From positions 1 through 21,354 of IMG/VR virus record IMGVR_UViG_3300032053_000622: a stretch of 21,354 nucleotides of DNA; one strand, given 5' to 3'. Origin of the DNA: a virus. Made by a program: the position numbers and the translations under genes. A model generated the notes under the pieces. That model saw only the letters and a program-made list of their open reading frames with translations, did not search any database and was not told the origin of the DNA. The first letter of the stretch is position 1. Every line of letters begins with the position of its first letter. This document shows positions 2,723 through 21,329 of this stretch, one piece after another.

Positions 2723-2752
2723 TTATAACCTCATTAGCCTCATTAGCCTCAT
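2723..2752 (-). repeat. Triplicate 9-bp repeat forming a nine-codon coupling ORF
   Basis: The minus strand has CTAATGAGG three times in a row just at the tape-measure stop. The first ATG overlaps that stop (TAATG). Read on, it gives M-R-L three times and then TAA, immediately before the next gene's ATG. Each unit also carries a GAGG that can serve as a ribosome site; the last one lies 6 nt before that ATG. The mini-ORF exactly fills the intergenic space. Confidence 0.65.
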
Positions 2753-5346
2753 TAGTCTGTATAACCCGTTTCAGACCGCGATGCGCGAAGTGCATCCAAT
2801 GCCTTACCTAATTTTTGTGCTATCATTTCTGGTGTATCAGTGCTTGTAGCTTTAATATCTATCTTTAAAGATTGAATATTTATGGGACCACCAGTAGCTT
2901 TCGCAACTCCACCTGTATCTTTTCCCGTGGCAATAGAACGAGCTATAGCTTCAATGCCCTTATTAGTGAGTCCATGTTCGCTGGCTATACCAGGAACTTG
3001 TTTAAACTTTTCTGTTAGTTTTAATGTCTTCTCTTCTGTAGCAATATCAGCCCTAGCTTTAGTAGTATCCCCGGCAGTTAATGCTGAACCGTATACATCA
3101 TAAGCAGCTTTCATCTGAGGAGTCTTCATATTTTCAGGGAGTTTCTCGTATTTAGCTTGAGCAAATCCCATATTACTTTTTTCTAGTTTATCTGCGGACT
3201 CTAATAGCGCATTCTCAATTGCGTCGGACAGCTTATAGACTAATCCGATTATTATTACTATAGCGGCAATAATTAAATAAAACTTTAGGTTAGTTGCAAC
3301 AGTTAAGGCTAACAAAGTACCCTGTTTAACTATTGCTAATCCCAATCCAATTATATATTTTGCAATCCAGATTGTTACAATTATTCCTAATATATTTCCT
3401 ATTGCTTCAAAAGCAGTTCTCATTTCAGAGATAGGGCCGTTAGAGCCAGAAATCAATCCTAACAACTTTCCAAAATAAATAACCCCGATCATTATCGTCT
3501 TAACAACGAGCCATACAGCAGCTCCTAAAGGAAATAGAACTATCCTTAAAACATTTTTAAATCCATTAAACATATCTACAACTAACATTTTAGCTTGTAA
3601 GAAAAACTCTACAATCTTTAAAACACCTTTTCCTTTAAGCTCATCATAAACACTTTTCCTGCCGCCAATATTTTCATCCCAAAATTCAAAAACACCTTTT
3701 ATAACCAAACCTAGATTTGAAAAAACATTTGAAAGATCTTCTATACCAGAAGTCTTTCCTGTCAAATCCATAAAAGAATCTAATGCAAGCCACAATACTC
3801 CCAATACTGCTGCTATCGTAAGCAAAGGAGCTGCTACTGTAGAAATTGACAAAATCAGCGATGGAGAAAACATAAGCAACAAAGCTGGTTTTATATAACT
3901 AATCCAGAAAAATACTGAAGCTAAACCTAAAGCCAATACGCCTAAAATTGTAGCAAGAGCTGCCCCATATACAATTGTTTTTGCAAAGGCGCTATTCAAT
4001 GCCGGACTTCTAGCTAAAAGTTCACTAAAACCTGCAAGTGAACCCTGTATAGAATTAGCTAAATCTCCAAACACACCTGTAACACCTTCACCAGAAACGG
4101 CTAAAAAAGACTCCCAGGTAGCTTTAAGCCTTTTAATTCTCATTTCAGAAGACTTCATTAAATTTTCGTTAGCTATATCCATCTGTCCTGTAGAAGAATC
4201 AATAACACTACTTAAATATTTAAGAGCTTCACCTGCCTCTTTTCCACCATTCTTATACTGTCTAAATGCATTCATAACTGTACGAGCATTATCTGCAAAA
4301 AGCTGATTTAAGTTAGTTAGATAATAATTCTCTCCTTTATCTCTAATAATCTCATTAGACTTCTTTGAGAAGTCATCTACAATATCTAAAACCTTTCTTT
4401 TCTGTCCCGTAAGAACATCAAAGAAAGGAATATTAAAAACCTTATAAGCCTCCACAGCTTTTTTAAGCTTCATGCCTACAAGTTCTGGATCTTCAGCTTG
4501 AAGTGCTAAAAAATCCTTCTGTCCAATCTTATTCTTCATCATATCTTTATTAACTTGAGCTTGAACTAGAATCATTCTTCGACCAAAAGCTTTTAAGTTT
4601 TGAGCAGCATCAGCTGGAGTCATAACGTTTTTAAGAGCACCAGCCATTGCGAAGAAATCAGACATGGTAGTTCTTAAAACAGCCGGAACGTCGCGCATAG
4701 ACCTAACTAGAATAGGAAGATCTTCCCATGCAAGAGCAGTCTCGTTTGCTGCAACCATCATCTTATCGGCAACTTCTTGATAAGTAGCACCCTGATCTTG
4801 AAACTTGGTAATCATACCTTCAAAGGCATTAGCTCCTGTTTCTGGATCTAAAGCACCCCTAGAAACCGCTATAGCTCTAAGTAACACTGGAGCGCGCTTG
4901 AGTGATTCCTCTACGCTATTACCCCAGGCGCCAATTCGACTCATCATCTGCGTAACTTCTACGGCAGAATTAAGAGATGAAGATCCAAGTCCTATAACAG
5001 ACTTTGAAACTGTTTTTACTTGTTCATCAGTTGACTGCGTAATGTTTTGAAAGTTAAGAAGCTCAGTCTGTAGTTGACCTGAAGCTGCTATCATTGGTTG
5101 AGCCATACTGCTCCACATAGCCCTACCTACACCGACTAATCCTGCACCCATAGCGCCGAAAGCGATAGAAGCTTTATCAAGAGATTTATTTAAAGTTGTA
5201 CTTGTCTTCTGTAAAGCAGAAGAAACCCCATCAGCAGTAGTCTGAATTTTCTTAAGAGCTGTATTAGTTACCTGGGCACCTTTAAGGACACCCGAGGCAT
5301 CAAAGTCCATGGTGATACCCATGGCAATCTGAGTTCCAATAGACAT
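2752..5346 (-). CDS. Tape measure protein
   Basis: Sets tail length and occupies the tube lumen until DNA ejection. The 864-residue protein begins with a phage-type tape-measure N terminus (DFDASGVLKGAQVTNTALKK, 14-33) and a long helical region. Hydrophobic segments follow at about 455-485, 495-525, 600-630, 648-675 and 688-706, with a Lys/Glu-rich helical part after 710. Residues 61-80 (IAFGAMGAGLVGVGRAMWSS) are also hydrophobic and glycine-rich. It is the longest gene in the window, directly after the chaperone, and starts at an ATG that overlaps the frameshift-product stop. The C-terminal part has no visible lytic domain. Confidence 0.92.
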   Translation of the reverse strand: MSIGTQIAMGITMDFDASGVLKGAQVTNTALKKIQTTADGVSSALQKTSTTLNKSLDKASIAFGAMGAGLVGVGRAMWSSMAQPMIAASGQLQTELLNFQNITQSTDEQVKTVSKSVIGLGSSSLNSAVEVTQMMSRIGAWGNSVEESLKRAPVLLRAIAVSRGALDPETGANAFEGMITKFQDQGATYQEVADKMMVAANETALAWEDLPILVRSMRDVPAVLRTTMSDFFAMAGALKNVMTPADAAQNLKAFGRRMILVQAQVNKDMMKNKIGQKDFLALQAEDPELVGMKLKKAVEAYKVFNIPFFDVLTGQKRKVLDIVDDFSKKSNEIIRDKGENYYLTNLNQLFADNARTVMNAFRQYKNGGKEAGEALKYLSSVIDSSTGQMDIANENLMKSSEMRIKRLKATWESFLAVSGEGVTGVFGDLANSIQGSLAGFSELLARSPALNSAFAKTIVYGAALATILGVLALGLASVFFWISYIKPALLLMFSPSLILSISTVAAPLLTIAAVLGVLWLALDSFMDLTGKTSGIEDLSNVFSNLGLVIKGVFEFWDENIGGRKSVYDELKGKGVLKIVEFFLQAKMLVVDMFNGFKNVLRIVLFPLGAAVWLVVKTIMIGVIYFGKLLGLISGSNGPISEMRTAFEAIGNILGIIVTIWIAKYIIGLGLAIVKQGTLLALTVATNLKFYLIIAAIVIIIGLVYKLSDAIENALLESADKLEKSNMGFAQAKYEKLPENMKTPQMKAAYDVYGSALTAGDTTKARADIATEEKTLKLTEKFKQVPGIASEHGLTNKGIEAIARSIATGKDTGGVAKATGGPINIQSLKIDIKATSTDTPEMIAQKLGKALDALRASRSETGYTD

Positions 5347-5519
5347 TATCTTCCAGACTCCCTTCTAATATCCTCGTTGATAAGCTCTATATAAGCATTT
5401 CTACGATGAAGCGGAAGTCTAAGAATATCTGCCTCTTTCCAACCGTATCTTGTTGCTAAAGCATGTACTTGAGCAGTTATTGCATTCAATATTTCGTCTT
5501 TTTCTGATTCCGACCACCG
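5346..5519 (-). CDS. -1 frameshift extension of the tail chaperone (GT domain)
   Basis: This is the -1 frame after the T TTT TTC site, 57 codons with no ribosome binding site or good start codon of its own. It reads RWSESEKDEILNAI at the junction and continues with HALATRYGWKEADILRLPLH (19-38) and NAYIELINEDIRRE. That helical pattern, Y-x-W-x3-DILxLPxxxRxxxxxxI, is the one seen in the second chaperone of many tailed phages and contractile injection systems. The TAA stop overlaps the tape-measure ATG (TAATG), so its translation can couple to that gene. The fusion product would be 314 aa. Together with the frame-0 product it would make the G/GT pair that binds the tape measure. Confidence 0.7.
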   Translation of the reverse strand, partial: RWSESEKDEILNAITAQVHALATRYGWKEADILRLPLHRRNAYIELINEDIRRESGR

Positions 5520-6289
5520 AAAAAACTTGTTAAATCCAATCTAGCTTCAAAATCTTTTCCACACTGACAATGGACTTCTTTCCACTGTCGCAAACCAGGA
5601 AACTCATATTGAAATACTTCCAATATTGCTAGTCTATCTCGTTGTTTCAAACGCTTTACAGATTCAGAATCTATCTTCTCTATAGTTCCCAAATTAGTAA
5701 TACAAGCGGCTAACATAGAATCCAAAGCTTGCGCAGGATTCTCAATAACAGCCATCAACTCTTGATCTCTACCCATAGGAAATCGAATGAAACCTTTAGT
5801 TTGAAAAATGTCTGTCTTTGGGTCTTTAATCCCAAGCTTAAACTCGAAATCAACACCCAAAGCTTTATCATCTGGCCAAGAATACACTGGGAAATCTGAA
5901 AGAGCTGCTTCTTCTTCCCAGACTCGATTGCATCTAGGACATTCACCTGCTAGGCATACCTGTTCACGACCACTCAAATGATAAATTCTAGCAAGTAGAT
6001 AATCTCTATCTATCAGAGTCATCCTCCTAAGATAGTCTACTTCAAGTTTAGACTCTGAGTTTTTCTTTCTGGGAATCAAACCAGAAATCTCTTGAATACA
6101 CCTAGCTAGAACTACTGTTGACCCCTTAGCAGAATTTCCACCTAACTTCTTATCAGCAACATTGAAATCATCAATGCCGCAAAGTTCATCTATAACAACC
6201 TCTTTATACCGAACACCCTCGACCTCAAGACCAACTGGAAGAGTAACCTGCTCGCCGCTCCCAAAAGGGATTTGTTCGAACTCTATCAT
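5486..6289 (-). CDS. T4 gp26-like baseplate/tail assembly chaperone, frame-0 product (G)
   Basis: Lies between tube and tape measure, the place of the tail-assembly chaperone that coats the tape measure before tube growth. Residues 112-120 (CLAGECPRC) and 241-243 (CQC) can form a four-cysteine zinc site (C117, C120, C241, C243). With the surrounding pattern (LIDRDYLLARIYHLSGREQV, 92-111), this matches the T4 gp26-like baseplate-assembly family of contractile phages. AAGGAG is about 6-7 nt upstream of the ATG. The frame-0 product ends GRNQKKTKY soon after a T TTT TTC slippery site, where a -1 shift would add 57 residues. Family call is fairly good; the precise step is inferred from related phages. 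Confidence 0.75.
   Translation of the reverse strand: MIEFEQIPFGSGEQVTLPVGLEVEGVRYKEVVIDELCGIDDFNVADKKLGGNSAKGSTVVLARCIQEISGLIPRKKNSESKLEVDYLRRMTLIDRDYLLARIYHLSGREQVCLAGECPRCNRVWEEEAALSDFPVYSWPDDKALGVDFEFKLGIKDPKTDIFQTKGFIRFPMGRDQELMAVIENPAQALDSMLAACITNLGTIEKIDSESVKRLKQRDRLAILEVFQYEFPGLRQWKEVHCQCGKDFEARLDLTSFFGGRNQKKTKY
5519..5525 (-). promoter_or_regulatory. Slippery heptamer T TTT TTC for -1 ribosomal frameshifting
   Basis: In frame 0 the codons read AGT TTT TTC (S255, F256, F257), giving the X XXY YYZ heptamer T TTT TTC. It lies 11 codons before the frame-0 stop. After a -1 slip both phenylalanine tRNAs re-pair with TTT, and the -1 frame is open for 57 codons to a stop that overlaps the tape-measure start. 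No strong downstream stem-loop is evident by eye. Confidence 0.7.
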
Positions 6290-6374: not shown

Positions 6375-6830
6375 TCAGAGGGTCTGCATCAAAATGCCTT
6401 CATTGCAGAGTGTCATAGACTCAATTGCAACTTCATTGGCAGAAGAATCCAAATCAGGAAACTTCATTTCTTTAGGCCAAGCGCGGCTTACACTCCACTT
6501 CTTAATCCTAGTTCCAGACTTATCTTTCAAAAAGATAATGATTGGTTTTCTGTAGTCGTCATTGGAACCCTGTTTTCCATCCTTTTTACTCAGATCGAAA
6601 ATGAGTTTCCTCCAATTAACGAAATCAGAATCCGTTGACATACCCCTCTCAAAGGTTATGTCATTAAATTTCGTCTGACCGGTTAGGTGATGCGGAGTCT
6701 CATTCTCTCCGCCTTCCCTGTATTCAATATCCTCTGTAGTTTCTCCGAGACCTGTAACCTTAGAGAAACCGGCTCTTACGAAACCATCGCTTTCGACTTC
6801 AAACTTGAAATTGCGATAGGGATCAGTCAT
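6375..6830 (-). CDS. Tail tube protein (T4 gp19-like)
   Basis: Stacks as hexameric rings into the inner tube through which DNA passes. The 151-residue length and pattern match the gp19-like family: YRNFKFEVESDGFVRAGFSK (5-24), GLGETTEDIEYREGG (27-41), then the loop TKFNDITFERGMSTDSDFVN (53-72) with the conserved R-G, and the C-terminal WPKEMKFPDLDSSANEVAIE (118-137). GGAGG is 5 nt upstream of the ATG. It follows the sheath directly. The 85-base gap after it contains no convincing terminator. Confidence 0.92.
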   Translation of the reverse strand: MTDPYRNFKFEVESDGFVRAGFSKVTGLGETTEDIEYREGGENETPHHLTGQTKFNDITFERGMSTDSDFVNWRKLIFDLSKKDGKQGSNDDYRKPIIIFLKDKSGTRIKKWSVSRAWPKEMKFPDLDSSANEVAIESMTLCNEGILMQTL

Positions 6831-6854: not shown

Positions 6855-9341
6855 TCAACCCTCGGTAACTTCCAGACCCGCGGAATATTGAGCGAACTGG
6901 AAGATAATAAACTCGCCGGGTTTGTGTGGAGCAAGACCAATCTTGCCAATCACTTTTCCGACATCCCTATCAGCTGCATCCATAACCCCATCGGTAATCC
7001 CGACAAGGACATAAAATGCGTTTGCAGAATCGCTTGTCGGGAATGCACCCTCCCCTAACTTATCAGTTAGGAACTCGGTAATGCGATCCTTCAACCGACC
7101 CCAAAGTTTGAAATCGTTATTTCTGAAAACACCCCAACGAGTCCCATCTACAATGGACTTCTCGAAGTATTGGAACGTTCTCCTCGTATTGATATACCTG
7201 AACTCTTGTGTTGCAGAGGAATCCAAGGTTCTAGCTCCCCAGACAGTAACCGGAGATGTATTCGTAAACTTAATGAACACGTTGATATGGGCATCATTCA
7301 TCAATCCGCAGTCTTCTTTAGAATAAGAATCAACTACATCAAGAGCGGAATTGATTTTTCCATAATCACCTTCACCAGCTGGTGATTGCCATGGACCGCC
7401 ATTTGGTGTTGGTAGCGTATCAACACGGCTCATAACTCCCATAATCGCGCCAACACCCTTGATACTCTTTTTCGGATTTGATCCGCTACCATTAGCGTCA
7501 ACAACCTTTATGCCACCCGTGTACAGGAAAGCATAGCTGGAATTGATTCCCAGAGTCGAATTTCGATAGGCGATAGCAGCGCTTGCTGTAGTTCCAACTG
7601 CAACAGTCTCAACGAAGTCAAACCAAATTCGGCTTTTCGCATAAAGAGCTGCCGAATGGAAAACAGCGGCAGAAAAAACAGTAGTCGAAAGTTTTACGAG
7701 TGCGAAAGGCATAAACTCATTAATCAAATCCCAAGCATAAAGACCCGTACCACCCGTGGTATCTCCAATCCAGTCCACATCAACTACACTGCCGTAATCA
7801 TCAGTGCCGCTAGCCAGAAGAGTTGCTGCAAGAACGGCTGGAGTATCATAACCCGTGCCACCAGCAGCATCTTGATCTGTTACATAGAAATATGAAGAAC
7901 CGATGCTGTCATCATTAATAATAGTCTCTACATAATTATCAGCTGTATCCAACATCGACAGATTCGTCCAAGACTCTACAAGTAGTCCATTCTCATAAGC
8001 ATAGAGATTGAACTCCATAGAGGTAACGGTCGTATCAACTTTAACAAAATTGTTCACGAAAGCAACTGTTGGTGTAACCGTATGAGTTACAACACCTCCA
8101 GTTACAGTGGTCAAAATACTTTGAACAATTTTATACTCGGTGTTTGTTCCATCTGTAAACTTCAAGATGGTATCAGCTTGAATACCTTTTGGATTCTGAA
8201 CAGTACAAGTGGTATTAGTCGCCGTAATTGAAGCTGCAAGATCATTATTAGCTCCCGCAGAGGGGTGCAAAGGAGTCTGAGCAACCTGAACCTTAAGGCT
8301 ATTTCCAAAAATGCCTGGGCAGCGATAACCCTTGTATCCTGCTTCTACTTTCAGTGTATTCTGTGCTGGACCAGCCGCAGTGCCTGTTACTGTTTCAGCT
8401 GAGAAACCTAGAATCGTGAGAGCGGTACCCGTAAAGATAATATTTGCGCCGGTGCCGGTTGTTGGAGAAGAAACCGTGAATGAACCATCACTATTAACAA
8501 CAACAACCGCAATAGATGAGGTAGTCGCGTCGATAAGAGTCTTCATTTCGGCAGCGGTAACAGCTCTGAGATTTGAAACATTCGATGCGGATAAGTTTGT
8601 GGTTGTTCCAGAGGTAAATCCTAGTTCAGTCAGTGCAGTGCTAGCCGCATGGAACTGAACCGTTCCTGAACTACCCTTGGTATCCGTGTTGATACCTACT
8701 TCATTGGTATCCACAACAGAAGCATACCCACCATAAATCTGAGCATTTATCTCATCACAAGTTGAATCTGCATCAGTAGCACCAACCGTAAAAGTTACTG
8801 TTTGCTGTGGACCACCATCAAAAGACACAACAAGTGTCTTTGTATTCATAAGATTAAAAGTAGCGTCAGCACCTTTACGCTGCGTCGATGTAGCAGTAAT
8901 AGTTGTAGTCCTATTACCACCGCCAGTAATATTCATAATCATTGTGAGACCAGAAGTAACAAGATTAAAAGGACCAATGCCGCTATCATGAGTAGCAGCA
9001 GTCGCGGGGGTGCCACCAGAAAGAAGCATTCTAGAAGCAGGAACCCCAGTAAATGTCGTCTTATCCGCAATACTGGAAAAATGAGCTTGTCGTACTGTAA
9101 TAAGCTCGAAACCACCTTCGTCAAAGAAAGCTTTAGCTTCATATGCAGCATCGCTATAGCTTACATACCCTCCAAAGATCCTTTTCCAAGAGGCAAAAGA
9201 GCGAGTCCTAATAGGAACTGCGACTGGTCCACGCTCTGTGATAGCCTGAATTCCACCGATACCTAAAGAGGCCGGTTGAATCGGTCCATCAAGAGAGTTT
9301 AATTCCTCTGCGTAAGTATCCGGAAAACTATAAACCGGCAT
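6855..9341 (-). CDS. Contractile tail sheath protein, enlarged (828 aa)
   Basis: Forms the contractile outer sheath that drives the tube into the host. The N-terminal arm (PVYSFPDTYAEEL; GGIQAITERGPV, 29-40; SFASWKRIFGGY, 48-59) and the C-terminal domain (INTRRTFQYFEKSIVDGTRW, 717-736; LWGRLKDRITEFLTDKL, 746-762; final GEFIIFQFAQYSAG) are typical of phage sheaths and supply the arms that link subunits. Sheaths are usually about 400-700 aa; the extra length lies in residues about 105-440, which hold repeated beta-rich modules. GGAGGAG lies about 9 nt before the ATG. It precedes the tube gene by 24 bases, the usual sheath-tube pair. Confidence 0.92.
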   Translation of the reverse strand: MPVYSFPDTYAEELNSLDGPIQPASLGIGGIQAITERGPVAVPIRTRSFASWKRIFGGYVSYSDAAYEAKAFFDEGGFELITVRQAHFSSIADKTTFTGVPASRMLLSGGTPATAATHDSGIGPFNLVTSGLTMIMNITGGGNRTTTITATSTQRKGADATFNLMNTKTLVVSFDGGPQQTVTFTVGATDADSTCDEINAQIYGGYASVVDTNEVGINTDTKGSSGTVQFHAASTALTELGFTSGTTTNLSASNVSNLRAVTAAEMKTLIDATTSSIAVVVVNSDGSFTVSSPTTGTGANIIFTGTALTILGFSAETVTGTAAGPAQNTLKVEAGYKGYRCPGIFGNSLKVQVAQTPLHPSAGANNDLAASITATNTTCTVQNPKGIQADTILKFTDGTNTEYKIVQSILTTVTGGVVTHTVTPTVAFVNNFVKVDTTVTSMEFNLYAYENGLLVESWTNLSMLDTADNYVETIINDDSIGSSYFYVTDQDAAGGTGYDTPAVLAATLLASGTDDYGSVVDVDWIGDTTGGTGLYAWDLINEFMPFALVKLSTTVFSAAVFHSAALYAKSRIWFDFVETVAVGTTASAAIAYRNSTLGINSSYAFLYTGGIKVVDANGSGSNPKKSIKGVGAIMGVMSRVDTLPTPNGGPWQSPAGEGDYGKINSALDVVDSYSKEDCGLMNDAHINVFIKFTNTSPVTVWGARTLDSSATQEFRYINTRRTFQYFEKSIVDGTRWGVFRNNDFKLWGRLKDRITEFLTDKLGEGAFPTSDSANAFYVLVGITDGVMDAADRDVGKVIGKIGLAPHKPGEFIIFQFAQYSAGLEVTEG

Positions 9342-9445: not shown

Positions 9446-10261
9446 TTATGGTCCTGTTGGACCGGTACCACCTGTTGAACCTGTTCCGCCTGTTGAACCC
9501 GTCCCACCGGTTGAACCTGTTCCGCCGGTTGAACCTGTTGGTGTATCGTAAAGAATGGAAATGACTTCGACATCGGTATCTGTAAATTTAAACCGAACAT
9601 CAGTCACCTCGTGATCTCCAACAACCTGTCCACTTTCAGTCTCTATTATCTTCCTCGAATTTACCTCAAACCGCAACTCTTCCGCAACTTTCTGCGTTGT
9701 AACCTCAGAAGCAGCAACACTACTTAGATAAGCTAAAACCGTAACGGTTAAAGACTTATGATATATCAATTCATCTGTATCAAATTCGTCTGCAACTAAT
9801 ACATTTCCATCCCAGAAAGCCCAAACATTTATATCAACATTGTCAATATTTTTTACGCTTAAATATCCTCTAATTGGAGTTTTAGCTAAAACTATTTCTG
9901 TAACTACATCTCTATCCTGAGATACGGTCGGTCTATGCCAAGTATCTACTAGATACTGAATTCTAAATGGAAATGGTTTTACACGCTCGGATCTAACCCT
10001 GGGATAAGGTGTAGAATTAACGCTGGTCTCTTCTACTGAATCATCATCTGTATGAAACGAATCATAATCAGGAACCATTGACAAAAGCTTTATAGAAACA
10101 GATGGAAAAACTCTTTGTGTGTAAATCTCTGTAGATGGTGTCTCTATAAAAGAGGTGATAGGAACTACTGTTAAATTAACTCCGACATGTATATGAGAAC
10201 CTGAATATCTAGCGACTAATGCTGCATCTATCGCTTTAAGAGTAGTTGCTTCACTAGACAT
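9446..10261 (-). CDS. Tail-terminator / tail-completion candidate with Gly-X-Y tail, 271 aa
   Basis: Translation most likely starts at the ATG at 10261 (MSSEATTLK), which has AAGAGG about 7 nt upstream. ATG 10267 is too close to that site, and a further in-frame TTG is at 10279. Residues about 1-245 form a beta-rich domain (SGSHIHVGVNLTVVPITSFI; FPFRIQYLVDTWHRPT) and contain no recognised enzyme motif. The place between HK97-gp10-like and sheath genes is where the tail terminator lies in contractile phages. The C terminus is a low-complexity run of Gly-X-Y triplets (GST, GGT repeated, then GPTGP) encoded by four 18-bp units. The terminator role is inferred from position. Confidence 0.65.
   Translation of the reverse strand: MSSEATTLKAIDAALVARYSGSHIHVGVNLTVVPITSFIETPSTEIYTQRVFPSVSIKLLSMVPDYDSFHTDDDSVEETSVNSTPYPRVRSERVKPFPFRIQYLVDTWHRPTVSQDRDVVTEIVLAKTPIRGYLSVKNIDNVDINVWAFWDGNVLVADEFDTDELIYHKSLTVTVLAYLSSVAASEVTTQKVAEELRFEVNSRKIIETESGQVVGDHEVTDVRFKFTDTDVEVISILYDTPTGSTGGTGSTGGTGSTGGTGSTGGTGPTGP
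9468..9539 (-). repeat. Four tandem 18-bp units coding for Gly-Ser-Thr-Gly-Gly-Thr
   Basis: Units at 9468-9485, 9486-9503, 9504-9521 and 9522-9539 share the pattern CCxCCxGTTGAACCxGTx on the plus strand and differ only at a few third-codon-type positions. Each codes for GSTGGT on the minus strand. The unit length is a multiple of three, so expansion or loss changes tail length without breaking the frame. Confidence 0.9.
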
Positions 10262-10742
10262 TTGCATACCTCTTAGCAACTTCTTCTAAAGTTTTATTTA
10301 ATTTACTATCTCTACCTGAAACAACTTCTTGTACTGTTCTTCTCCATAAAGGTCTAGAAGGGAGTCCTCTCGATGTCCCCATCTCAAGATAATAAGCGAG
10401 TTTACTCAAGTCTAAACCATTTTCAGCAGTACCTTTAGGGTAAACTGTAACAGTAAAACCATCTGATGATTTAACTATTTCTGAAACAATTGCCTGAACA
10501 AAAGTATGTGTATCTAAGTATTTTTTACGGTGACCTTTTTTATAAATAGTTATATCAGCTAATTTTTTCCAAGGAATATCCTGAGACATTATATGTGCAA
10601 CAACTGCATTTTTTACTTCTTTTCCAATATCTCCAACATAAGAACCAACTTCGCGAGTTATCTTACCTGAAATAATACCGTTAAGCCAATTAAATGTTTT
10701 ATCCCAGTCGCCTTTAAGATAAGCTTTTTTTCTTTTAGCCAT
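10254..10742 (-). CDS. HK97 gp10-like neck or tail-completion protein, 162 aa
   Basis: Structural protein of the head-tail junction. The hallmark is the C-terminal pattern YYLEMGTSRGLPSRPLWRRT (117-136), which matches the E-x-G-T-S...P-x-R-P-F signature of the HK97 gp10 / tail-completion family. It is preceded by a strand pair (DGFTVTVYPKG) and a helical, lysine-rich N-terminal half (ITREVGSYVGDIGKEVKNAV). Spacing is tight: TAATG with the previous gene and an 8-base overlap with the next. These overlaps imply matched production of the neck proteins. Confidence 0.8.
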   Translation of the reverse strand: MAKRKKAYLKGDWDKTFNWLNGIISGKITREVGSYVGDIGKEVKNAVVAHIMSQDIPWKKLADITIYKKGHRKKYLDTHTFVQAIVSEIVKSSDGFTVTVYPKGTAENGLDLSKLAYYLEMGTSRGLPSRPLWRRTVQEVVSGRDSKLNKTLEEVAKRYANV

Positions 10743-19015: not shown

Positions 19016-19948
19016 TTATGATAATAATTTAACCATAGACTTAATTATCTTAATATGATCTGTATATTCACTTATAAATATAGAAGTAGTATCTACAAAA
19101 CGTAATGCTTGCTCAATACATGCTCTAGCATGTTCTACTGAATACGCCTCATATCTAAATCGACTATATATTTTTTTAAATGGTTCTACATTCGGAATAA
19201 CTGGGATGGCTCCTGCTAAAACACCTTCAAAAATAGAGACATTAAGTGTGTCTCTAAGTGAAGCAGAGAAAACAATCTTAGTTTCTCCTAACAATAAATC
19301 ATAATCCTTACCGTAAAGATTTCTTACTGAAAAACCCATCTGTTTAAGTGTATTTACATATTCAGCTTCTAGGGGATCTTTCCCCGGATTTATCCCAGCC
19401 GAAAAGATAGTCTTATCCTTCCAGGGTTTTAATATAATACCAGCCAGCATAGGTTGCCTATCATTTGCTAACCTACCTGGTACAACAATCCACTTTTTAT
19501 CCTTAGATTCAAATCTACCTTTATCAATTGGAAATCCAACTGTAACTAGCCGAGTTAAATCAGTAATATTAGGCTTATAAAACTCAATAAATTTATCCCT
19601 ACTCCACTTAGTATTAAACATGATTATGTCGAATTTATTTAGATTTAGTCTAAAGGTATCATAAAAATCTTTTTGTTCTTTGTGGTCAAAATAACCCAAT
19701 AACTCTGGTCCGCCGTGATGATGGCCCACAATTTTTTCCCCGTTAGACTTTGCTAATTTTATAAACTTGAGGAACTCATAGTCGGTATCTCCCTGTAAAA
19801 ACCAAACATCACAGGGTCTAAACTTTTTAGCTTCAGGAAGGTATCCAACAACATCAATCCCTAAATCATTTAGGGTTTTTTCCAAAAGCGAAGAATATTC
19901 ATAAGTCCATGTTCCCACTTCTGTCCGGCGGATGAAATTTACTTTCAC
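19016..19948 (-). CDS. Glycosyltransferase, GT-B fold (GT4-like)
   Basis: Predicted to transfer a sugar from a nucleotide-sugar donor; the acceptor is unknown. The C-terminal half has the GT4 donor-site pattern: VVPGRLANDR (155-164), then SLRDTLNVSIFEGVLAGAIP (230-249), with E241 placed like the conserved Glu of the EX7E region, followed by PVIPN. The N-terminal half contains GHHHGGPELL (75-84), as in the acceptor-side domain, and FDIIMFNTKW (106-115), typical of the hinge. At 310 residues it is somewhat short for a GT4 enzyme. The start is GTG, supported by AAGGAG about 7 nt upstream. It is the last gene of the accessory block and sits ahead of a promoter. Phage enzymes of this kind can decorate virion proteins, DNA or host glycans; the sequence does not decide which. 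Confidence 0.8.
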   Translation of the reverse strand: MKVNFIRRTEVGTWTYEYSSLLEKTLNDLGIDVVGYLPEAKKFRPCDVWFLQGDTDYEFLKFIKLAKSNGEKIVGHHHGGPELLGYFDHKEQKDFYDTFRLNLNKFDIIMFNTKWSRDKFIEFYKPNITDLTRLVTVGFPIDKGRFESKDKKWIVVPGRLANDRQPMLAGIILKPWKDKTIFSAGINPGKDPLEAEYVNTLKQMGFSVRNLYGKDYDLLLGETKIVFSASLRDTLNVSIFEGVLAGAIPVIPNVEPFKKIYSRFRYEAYSVEHARACIEQALRFVDTTSIFISEYTDHIKIIKSMVKLLS

Positions 19949-20455: not shown

Positions 20456-20770
20456 TCAAATAAACCGCGTGACTGTTATTCTGTATGCTACACCCTCTGT
20501 TGTGATTAAGTTAACTGTGTCAGAATCAGCGACAGAACACTCAATTGACTTTATTTCGACATTGAATTTCTTCAACTCTTGTCTGGCGAGATTGAAATCT
20601 TTAGATGGATTCTTACCTTCAAGCCAAGATTTAAACGCTTCTAAACATAGCTGTACTACTTCGGGTATGTCCGCACTTATCGCAGCAGAAAGCTTAACTA
20701 TTCGTCTTGAGCGTTTATTGTATTCGTCAGTACGGCTTGCCAATGACTCGATAAAATGCTTGGTAGTCAT
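20456..20770 (-). CDS. Hypothetical protein, 104 aa
   Basis: I do not recognise the family. The frame is open from a TTG/ATG-like position further upstream, but I chose the ATG at 20770 because AAAGAG lies about 4 nt before it. This start overlaps the end of the methyltransferase gene by 44 nt. The N-terminal two thirds look helical, with a basic patch (KRSRRIVK). The last 40 residues look like beta strands ending in YRITVTRF. There is no signal peptide, membrane segment or cysteine motif. The overlap with the methyltransferase gene and the 30-nt gap to the next gene place it in the same transcript. Function unknown. Confidence 0.6.
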   Translation of the reverse strand: MTTKHFIESLASRTDEYNKRSRRIVKLSAAISADIPEVVQLCLEAFKSWLEGKNPSKDFNLARQELKKFNVEIKSIECSVADSDTVNLITTEGVAYRITVTRFI

Positions 20771-21329
20771 TAAACTCTTTCTTAGCTTGTATAAAACCTT
20801 TTCCACTCCAGGATAATTCCATTATAGTTTTTCCACCTGGAGGGACATCACCCAGTGGATTTCCCCACCCTCCAAACCAGGAGGTTAGTACAATAGAACC
20901 ACCGGGAACAACATTCTTTTCAAAAACATTATCTAAAAATTCTTGGCCGTATAGCATTTTGTGTTCTTTTTCCAAATACTCTAGGTCATCCAAGTAGGCC
21001 AAACAATCTGATATAACAACAATATCTGCTCTTATAGAAGGAAGTGGATCTCTCATATCATACACGTATGCATTAACTCGATTTATTTCTATGCATCTTT
21101 GCACAGCAAGACTGCAAAGATCGTATCCTACGAGTAGGTTTGGGTGACAAATATCCCTAATTTCTTTTAGAAGGAGCCCTTCACCACACCCATATTCAAC
21201 AATACTCAGTCCTTTTGTTACAAAAGCGTTTACTGGAAGGATCTGTTTACACAATCCGGCGGTTATACAATGCCTGTTTGCTACATGATAACCCCACGGA
21301 TCTTCTCCTTGACCATAAAAAACATCCAT
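20727..21329 (-). CDS. Class I SAM-dependent methyltransferase (NodS-like), possibly 5'-truncated
   Basis: Predicted to transfer a methyl group from S-adenosylmethionine to an unknown acceptor. The glycine-rich motif I (VEYGCGEGLL, about residues 44-53) forms the SAM-binding loop. It is followed by an acidic strand end (GYD, 68-70) and a motif IV-like stretch (ADIVVISDCLAYL, 101-113). The N-terminal DPWGY (10-14) recalls the NodS-type methyltransferases. The ATG at 21329 is preceded by AAAGAGG only about 2 nt away, which is too close for a normal ribosome binding site. The frame stays open to the window edge (upstream residues would read RGLSKEE), so the true start may lie outside. The gene opens a compact run with three small genes and a glycosyltransferase, suggesting modification of a glycan, the virion or DNA. 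The fold is fairly certain; the substrate is unknown. Confidence 0.8.
   Translation of the reverse strand: MDVFYGQGEDPWGYHVANRHCITAGLCKQILPVNAFVTKGLSIVEYGCGEGLLLKEIRDICHPNLLVGYDLCSLAVQRCIEINRVNAYVYDMRDPLPSIRADIVVISDCLAYLDDLEYLEKEHKMLYGQEFLDNVFEKNVVPGGSIVLTSWFGGWGNPLGDVPPGGKTIMELSWSGKGFIQAKKEFNDYQAFYRVIGKPY

Follow-up and report, generated by a model that had tools for sequence, protein, structure and literature searches.

A gp26-like tail protein with a DUF6760-related −1 extension as a probable G/G-T tail-assembly chaperone of a contractile-tailed phage, with relatives in bacterial eCIS

In the gpG/gpGT system of phage lambda, G binds the tape-measure protein, T binds the tube protein, and both are absent from the mature tail (PMC5009743). 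Shifts in both directions, −1 and +1, are already known for tailed-phage chaperones, some of them occur without stimulators, and T4 is the named exception to the G/G-T frameshift (PMC5009743). T4 has two listed hub assembly chaperones, gp26 and the product of the separate gene 51 (PMC3004832). Here we analyzed a viral DNA stretch of 21,354 nucleotides (the window) that, like the lambda gpG/gpGT locus, carries an overlapping pair between its tube and tape-measure genes, with the predicted shift located just before the stop codon of G. In contrast to the lambda proteins, the G protein of the window is gp26-like, harbors four cysteines and consists of two units, while its T part is DUF6760-like; among the listed sequence matches, none was to lambda G or T. 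We interpret the gene as encoding the G/G-T tail-assembly chaperone of a contractile-tailed phage, expressed via a −1 slip, with a probability of roughly 0.87; the slippage, its rate and the chaperone activity are inferred. This interpretation draws on features that could be established directly, namely the order of the genes, the conservation of the slip site, a conserved −1 frame that codes for protein, the homologies that link T to DUF6760 and G to gp26-type proteins, and the recurrence of the G-then-T layout in phages with a +1 shift and in eCIS.

All of the features described for this region lie on the minus strand, where the genes run in the order sheath, gp19-type tube, G, tape measure, tube-initiator-like protein and LysM-like protein. 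The sheath gene (6855–9341; PF17482, E 3.7e-7; PHROG 23 tail sheath, E 1e-28) is followed by the gp19-type tail tube gene (6375–6830; PF06841, E 1.1e-36), which stands immediately upstream of G (5486–6289), a frame-0 tail assembly protein of 267 aa with matches to PF12322 (E 7e-5) and to PHROG 150 (baseplate hub). The 864-aa tape-measure protein (2752–5346; PHROG 28 tail length tape measure, E 2.5e-15) precedes a protein resembling the tube initiators of contractile injection systems (2063–2722; PF19266 CIS_tube, E 9.8e-12) and, next after it, the LysM-like protein (1764–2066). The G/T pair sits between the tube and the tape measure, as G/G-T chaperones do. Because terminase and portal genes are also present, the window does not meet the headless-locus criterion for an eCIS and is read as a phage. 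Elsewhere in the window, the ORF at 9446–10279 ends in a C-terminal GSTGGTGSTGGTG repeat of collagen-like composition, and a possible glycosyltransferase (19016–19948) and a possible methyltransferase (20727–21329), both identified by reading of the sequence only, lie upstream of the packaging genes.

The initial annotation described the frame-0 product as gp26-like, and both profile scores and predicted structures bear this out. Against PF12322 (T4_baseplate, whose namesake is T4 gp26), the window G scores 23.0 bits versus a gathering cut-off of 24.5, and relatives lie above the cut-off (26.5 bits for L004 and 33.4 bits for L007). The AlphaFold model of G (pLDDT 84.8) matches predicted T4-type hub proteins in BFVD, among them a T4-like hub assembly protein (E 6e-13) and gp26 of Aeromonas phage 25 (E 7e-4). 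A fold search of G against the PDB gave nothing useful (best Z 3.9). The N-terminal half of the G family profile aligns with the C-terminal half (probability 96%, E 1.6e-9), and, as judged from these profiles, G is a tandem duplication of a unit of ~110 aa, each unit ending in a cysteine pair. The first unit spans residues about 13–130 (5900–6253) and includes CPRC at residues 117–120 (5930–5941), which is invariant in alignment A9. The second, which matches the single-unit eCIS G, spans residues about 144–255 (5525–5860), ends at the slip site and includes CQC at residues 241–243 (5561–5569), also conserved in A9. The four cysteines are conserved across relatives; zinc binding by G is an inference from these residues, with no binding data. 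In the G model, order extends as far as the slip site; the frame-0 residues beyond it, 258–267, are predicted to be disordered (pLDDT under 50).

Frame 0 of G runs from the ATG at 6289 to the TGA at 5486, and within it the codons AGT TTT TTC place the heptamer T TTT TTC (5525–5519) in phase for two-tRNA −1 slippage. The earlier description of this heptamer as lying near the end of frame 0 holds: 10 sense codons and the stop remain after it. The 57-codon open −1 frame that had been proposed was likewise found (5346–5519, including its TAA), encoding RWSESEKDEILNAITAQVHALATRYGWKEADILRLPLHRRNAYIELINEDIRRESGR, and its TAA (5348–5346) overlaps the ATG of the tape-measure gene (5346), as had been noted. 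The fusion would comprise 257 residues of G and 57 of T, which reproduces the predicted length of 314 aa. In the proposed mechanism, most ribosomes would terminate at 5486 and release G, the two-unit gp26-like protein, while a minority would shift by one base in the −1 direction at T TTT TTC, with the two Phe tRNAs re-pairing, and produce the 314-aa G-T fusion. By analogy with lambda, G would then coat the product of the next gene to be translated, the tape-measure protein, and T would recruit gp19-type tube subunits to that protein, although binding is inferred in both cases.

Taken alone, the open −1 stretch of the window is only moderately unlikely to arise by chance (p about 0.017 for 57 codons in a first-order Markov simulation) and is suggestive at most. 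Canonical heptamers are rare, with about 19 in the 6156 codons of the main ORFs of the window, and it is the conservation of both elements in relatives, described below, that places the −1 frame together with the heptamer far beyond chance. No evident stimulator was found at the slip site, either Shine-Dalgarno-like or otherwise upstream. RNA structure 3′ of the heptamer is not significant in the window (z −0.25), and folding of the 69 nt downstream of this site in 12 family members revealed none that was significant across the set and none that was conserved, with a single z of −2.0. With none of these found, slippage may occur at low efficiency, which would be compatible with a low proportion of G-T to G.

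Relatives were reached only through the tube protein and alignments; when viral contigs were scanned with G alone, there were no matches. Using the tube and G proteins, 13 further distinct IMG/VR loci were collected, giving 14 members with the window included. Conservation of the heptamer and of an open −1 frame in related phages had been put forward as a check on the prediction, and both are retained in all 14 distinct members. In each, an extension homologous to T follows G in the −1 frame (alignment A6, with invariant A, W, P and Y), and a canonical heptamer is found where that frame opens: T TTT TTC in 12, including the window, T TTT TTA in L097 and G GGT TTT in L102. Moreover, in the part of T that follows the G stop, 28 of 37 substitutions between closely matched members (L090 versus L091 and L093 versus L094) affect the third codon position as read in the −1 frame; of the 32 codons that differ, 25 still specify the same amino acid. 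The predominance of third-position, synonymous changes indicates that the extension is translated and constrained. From one contig alone, it could not be excluded that the frame break in the window is a sequencing or assembly error or reflects gene decay, although none of the results speaks for this. However, the same out-of-frame layout is present in independent contigs from different samples and in cultured relatives, each with its own junction, and the extension is under purifying selection, so that this explanation can for practical purposes be dismissed. Collectively, these comparisons provide strong support for a programmed −1 frameshift, the slip itself being inferred from aligned genes.

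The T model is helical (pLDDT 85), and its closest named family is DUF6760 (PF20546). The window T scores 13.7 bits against this family, under the gathering cut-off of 27 although it is the top match, and hence the link between T and DUF6760 rests on profile-profile comparison, in which the window T profile aligns with eCIS DUF6760 over 48 columns (hhalign probability 96%, E 2.6e-9). By this comparison, the window T is a distant relative of DUF6760 and not a member. A fold search of T against the PDB gave nothing useful (best Z 4.2), and a sequence search of the PDB with eCIS T (DUF6760) returned no convincing chain; the missing PDB match fits a transient factor and is no proof of one. An initial guess that DUF6760 might correspond to the eCIS plug protein Afp6/Alg6/Cis6 (PMC8894135, PMC8894136) was dropped, as no convincing PDB chain was found by sequence.

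The same G protein is also followed by a T part in the +1 frame in about 50 relatives, which include the Streptomyces BRock-group phages, dozens of viral contigs and actinobacterial prophages. When the +1 site was defined as the in-frame TTT C closest upstream of the stop, TTT C was found at the homologous site in all 51 distinct sequences and lay 11 nt before the stop in 48 of them, as in the BRock example CTG TTT CGC GAA CTC TAA; elsewhere in these genes TTT accounts for 31 of 424 Phe codons. Many of the +1 sequences are closely related, so the 51 cannot be taken as independent events. In the +1 event, the Phe tRNA would re-pair from UUU to UUC. The T part of the +1 phages matches the DUF6760 profile (probability 94%). 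Bacillus phage SP-15, read by eye, contains TTT TTT CAC with an open +1 extension, and its T part was not recognized by our T profiles; in two marine contigs T lies in the +1 frame near CTT T. As a separate observation on the public records, the BRock-group entries L002, L003, L006, L007 and L008 either begin the T frame at different starts and list it as a hypothetical protein in its own right or do not annotate it, and in pSt2308 it is omitted entirely.

The tube-based genome scan also matched eCIS loci. One of these, L129, encodes two sheaths, a pair of gp19 tubes and a protein with an eCIS core domain, which confirmed it as an eCIS; the full neighborhood was checked only there, and the eCIS status of most of the 3-kb loci is an inference based on their carrying G and DUF6760 genes. 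In these loci, a G protein of about 125 aa directly follows the tube and overlaps DUF6760. It aligns with the C half of the phage G (probability 98%, E 3.8e-13) and with the N half of the +1-family G (probability 95%, E 5e-8). Searches with PF20546 around Streptomyces, Firmicutes, proteobacterial and planctomycete loci, combined with the first loci, gave 67 distinct pairs, in 65 of which DUF6760 is in the −1 frame; the other two (L197 and L199) are in-frame fusions. With G GGG GAN counted as slippery alongside X XXY YYZ, a heptamer is present in the last 30 nt of G in 61 of the 65, compared with 16 of 740 control windows inside G. The commonest is G GGG GAA, one codon before the stop, and the others are G GGG GGA, T TTT TTA and T TTT TTC. 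In most eCIS G proteins, a CPxC motif analogous to the second cysteine pair of the phage G immediately precedes the slip site. The fusions in L197 and L199, together with one in L208 (4831–5733), are natural in-frame joins of a two-unit G to T, with a TTC TTT TTT run retained where the two meet. In L125, what looked like an in-frame fusion was not confirmed by a later search. The tube matches L119–L121, L134 and L138 contain no G or T detectable by the profiles used.

These loci also bear on whether T is instead a separate small protein, made by ribosomes that re-initiate, or initiate in a coupled manner, close to the G stop, with the slip-like runs being incidental. The initial annotation had held that T has no ribosome site of its own, and this stands insofar as no Shine-Dalgarno-like sequence is present; it did not take account of a TTG in the −1 frame that overlaps the G stop (TATTGA) and could in principle initiate. 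Relatives do not retain this TTG, and no ATG, GTG or TTG precedes the T core in 8 of the 14 phage members, nor is any able to start it in 21 of the 65 eCIS pairs, while the heptamer is nearly always kept. Many Streptomyces and proteobacterial eCIS do have a GTG or ATG overlapping the stop after GGGGGAA, and since GGGGGAA could serve as a weak ribosome-binding site, separate initiation is still possible where such a start is present, as in Streptomyces. In L135 and L136, which have no convincing heptamer but have an ATG for DUF6760, there may have been a switch from frameshifting to separate initiation or re-initiation. The −1 phase, however, is constant although the type of heptamer varies, and the in-frame fusions in L197 and L199 likewise speak against independent synthesis, which we regard as unlikely.

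Efficient transcriptional slippage in bacteria usually requires longer runs of A or T. The window heptamer contains a run of six T residues, and a transcript slipped on it, rather than a slipping ribosome, would likewise yield G-T. That origin of the fusion appears very improbable, as the homologous sites of the +1 phages (TTT C) and of eCIS (G GGG GAA) are unsuitable for such slippage, and conservation of the reading phase is what tRNA slippage would predict. Ribosomal −1 slippage on T TTT TTC is the reading we retain for the window. In eCIS, the −1 phase, the heptamers, the missing starts and the natural fusions make DUF6760 look like the T half of a G/G-T chaperone. We consider it likely that eCIS of several phyla encode a −1-frameshifted G/G-T chaperone with DUF6760 as its T half, and that this pair is homologous to the chaperone of phages with T4-type tubes, in which G would have been duplicated and the slip direction changed by lineage.

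The combination of a gp26-like G with a short helical T had been called less commonly described, which is an understatement, as we found no description of it in open-licence PMC papers. DUF6760 is not mentioned in the papers searched, and no treatment of frameshifting in eCIS was found there; subscription papers and preprints were outside the search. A G/G-T pair of gp26-type G and DUF6760, common to phages and eCIS and differing in slip direction, was also not found in it. With this assignment, DUF6760, a family of unknown function, gains a testable function, and a classic phage recoding event is extended to gp26-type chaperones and to eCIS. An eCIS cluster that is annotated or re-coded could lose a required fusion if the heptamer were altered or the second frame overlooked. 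In addition, a single family whose slip sites, −1 in some members and +1 in others, fall at one and the same protein position is useful for studying how recoding direction evolves.

Comparison with the related systems places the window among them as follows. The BRock group (Borockvirus) has the same arrangement of G, T and tape measure after a gp19 tube, with Bacillus phage SP-15 more distant; in contrast to the window, T of the BRock group is in the +1 frame at TTT C, and in the records of this group and of SP-15 the genes are named as hypothetical, baseplate or hub proteins, with the fusion overlooked. The eCIS DUF6760 loci share with the window a homologous T in the −1 frame after a heptamer, adjoining a relative of G, whereas their G has one repeat unit and usually a G-rich heptamer and that of the window has two units. 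With T4 gp26 (PF12322), the window G shares a sequence-profile and predicted-fold match, a contractile tail and a gp19-type tube; unlike T4 gp26, for which no such extension has been described, it has a frameshifted T extension. Although T4 is set apart from the G/G-T frameshift (PMC5009743), G proteins of the window type are nevertheless of the T4 gp26 type.
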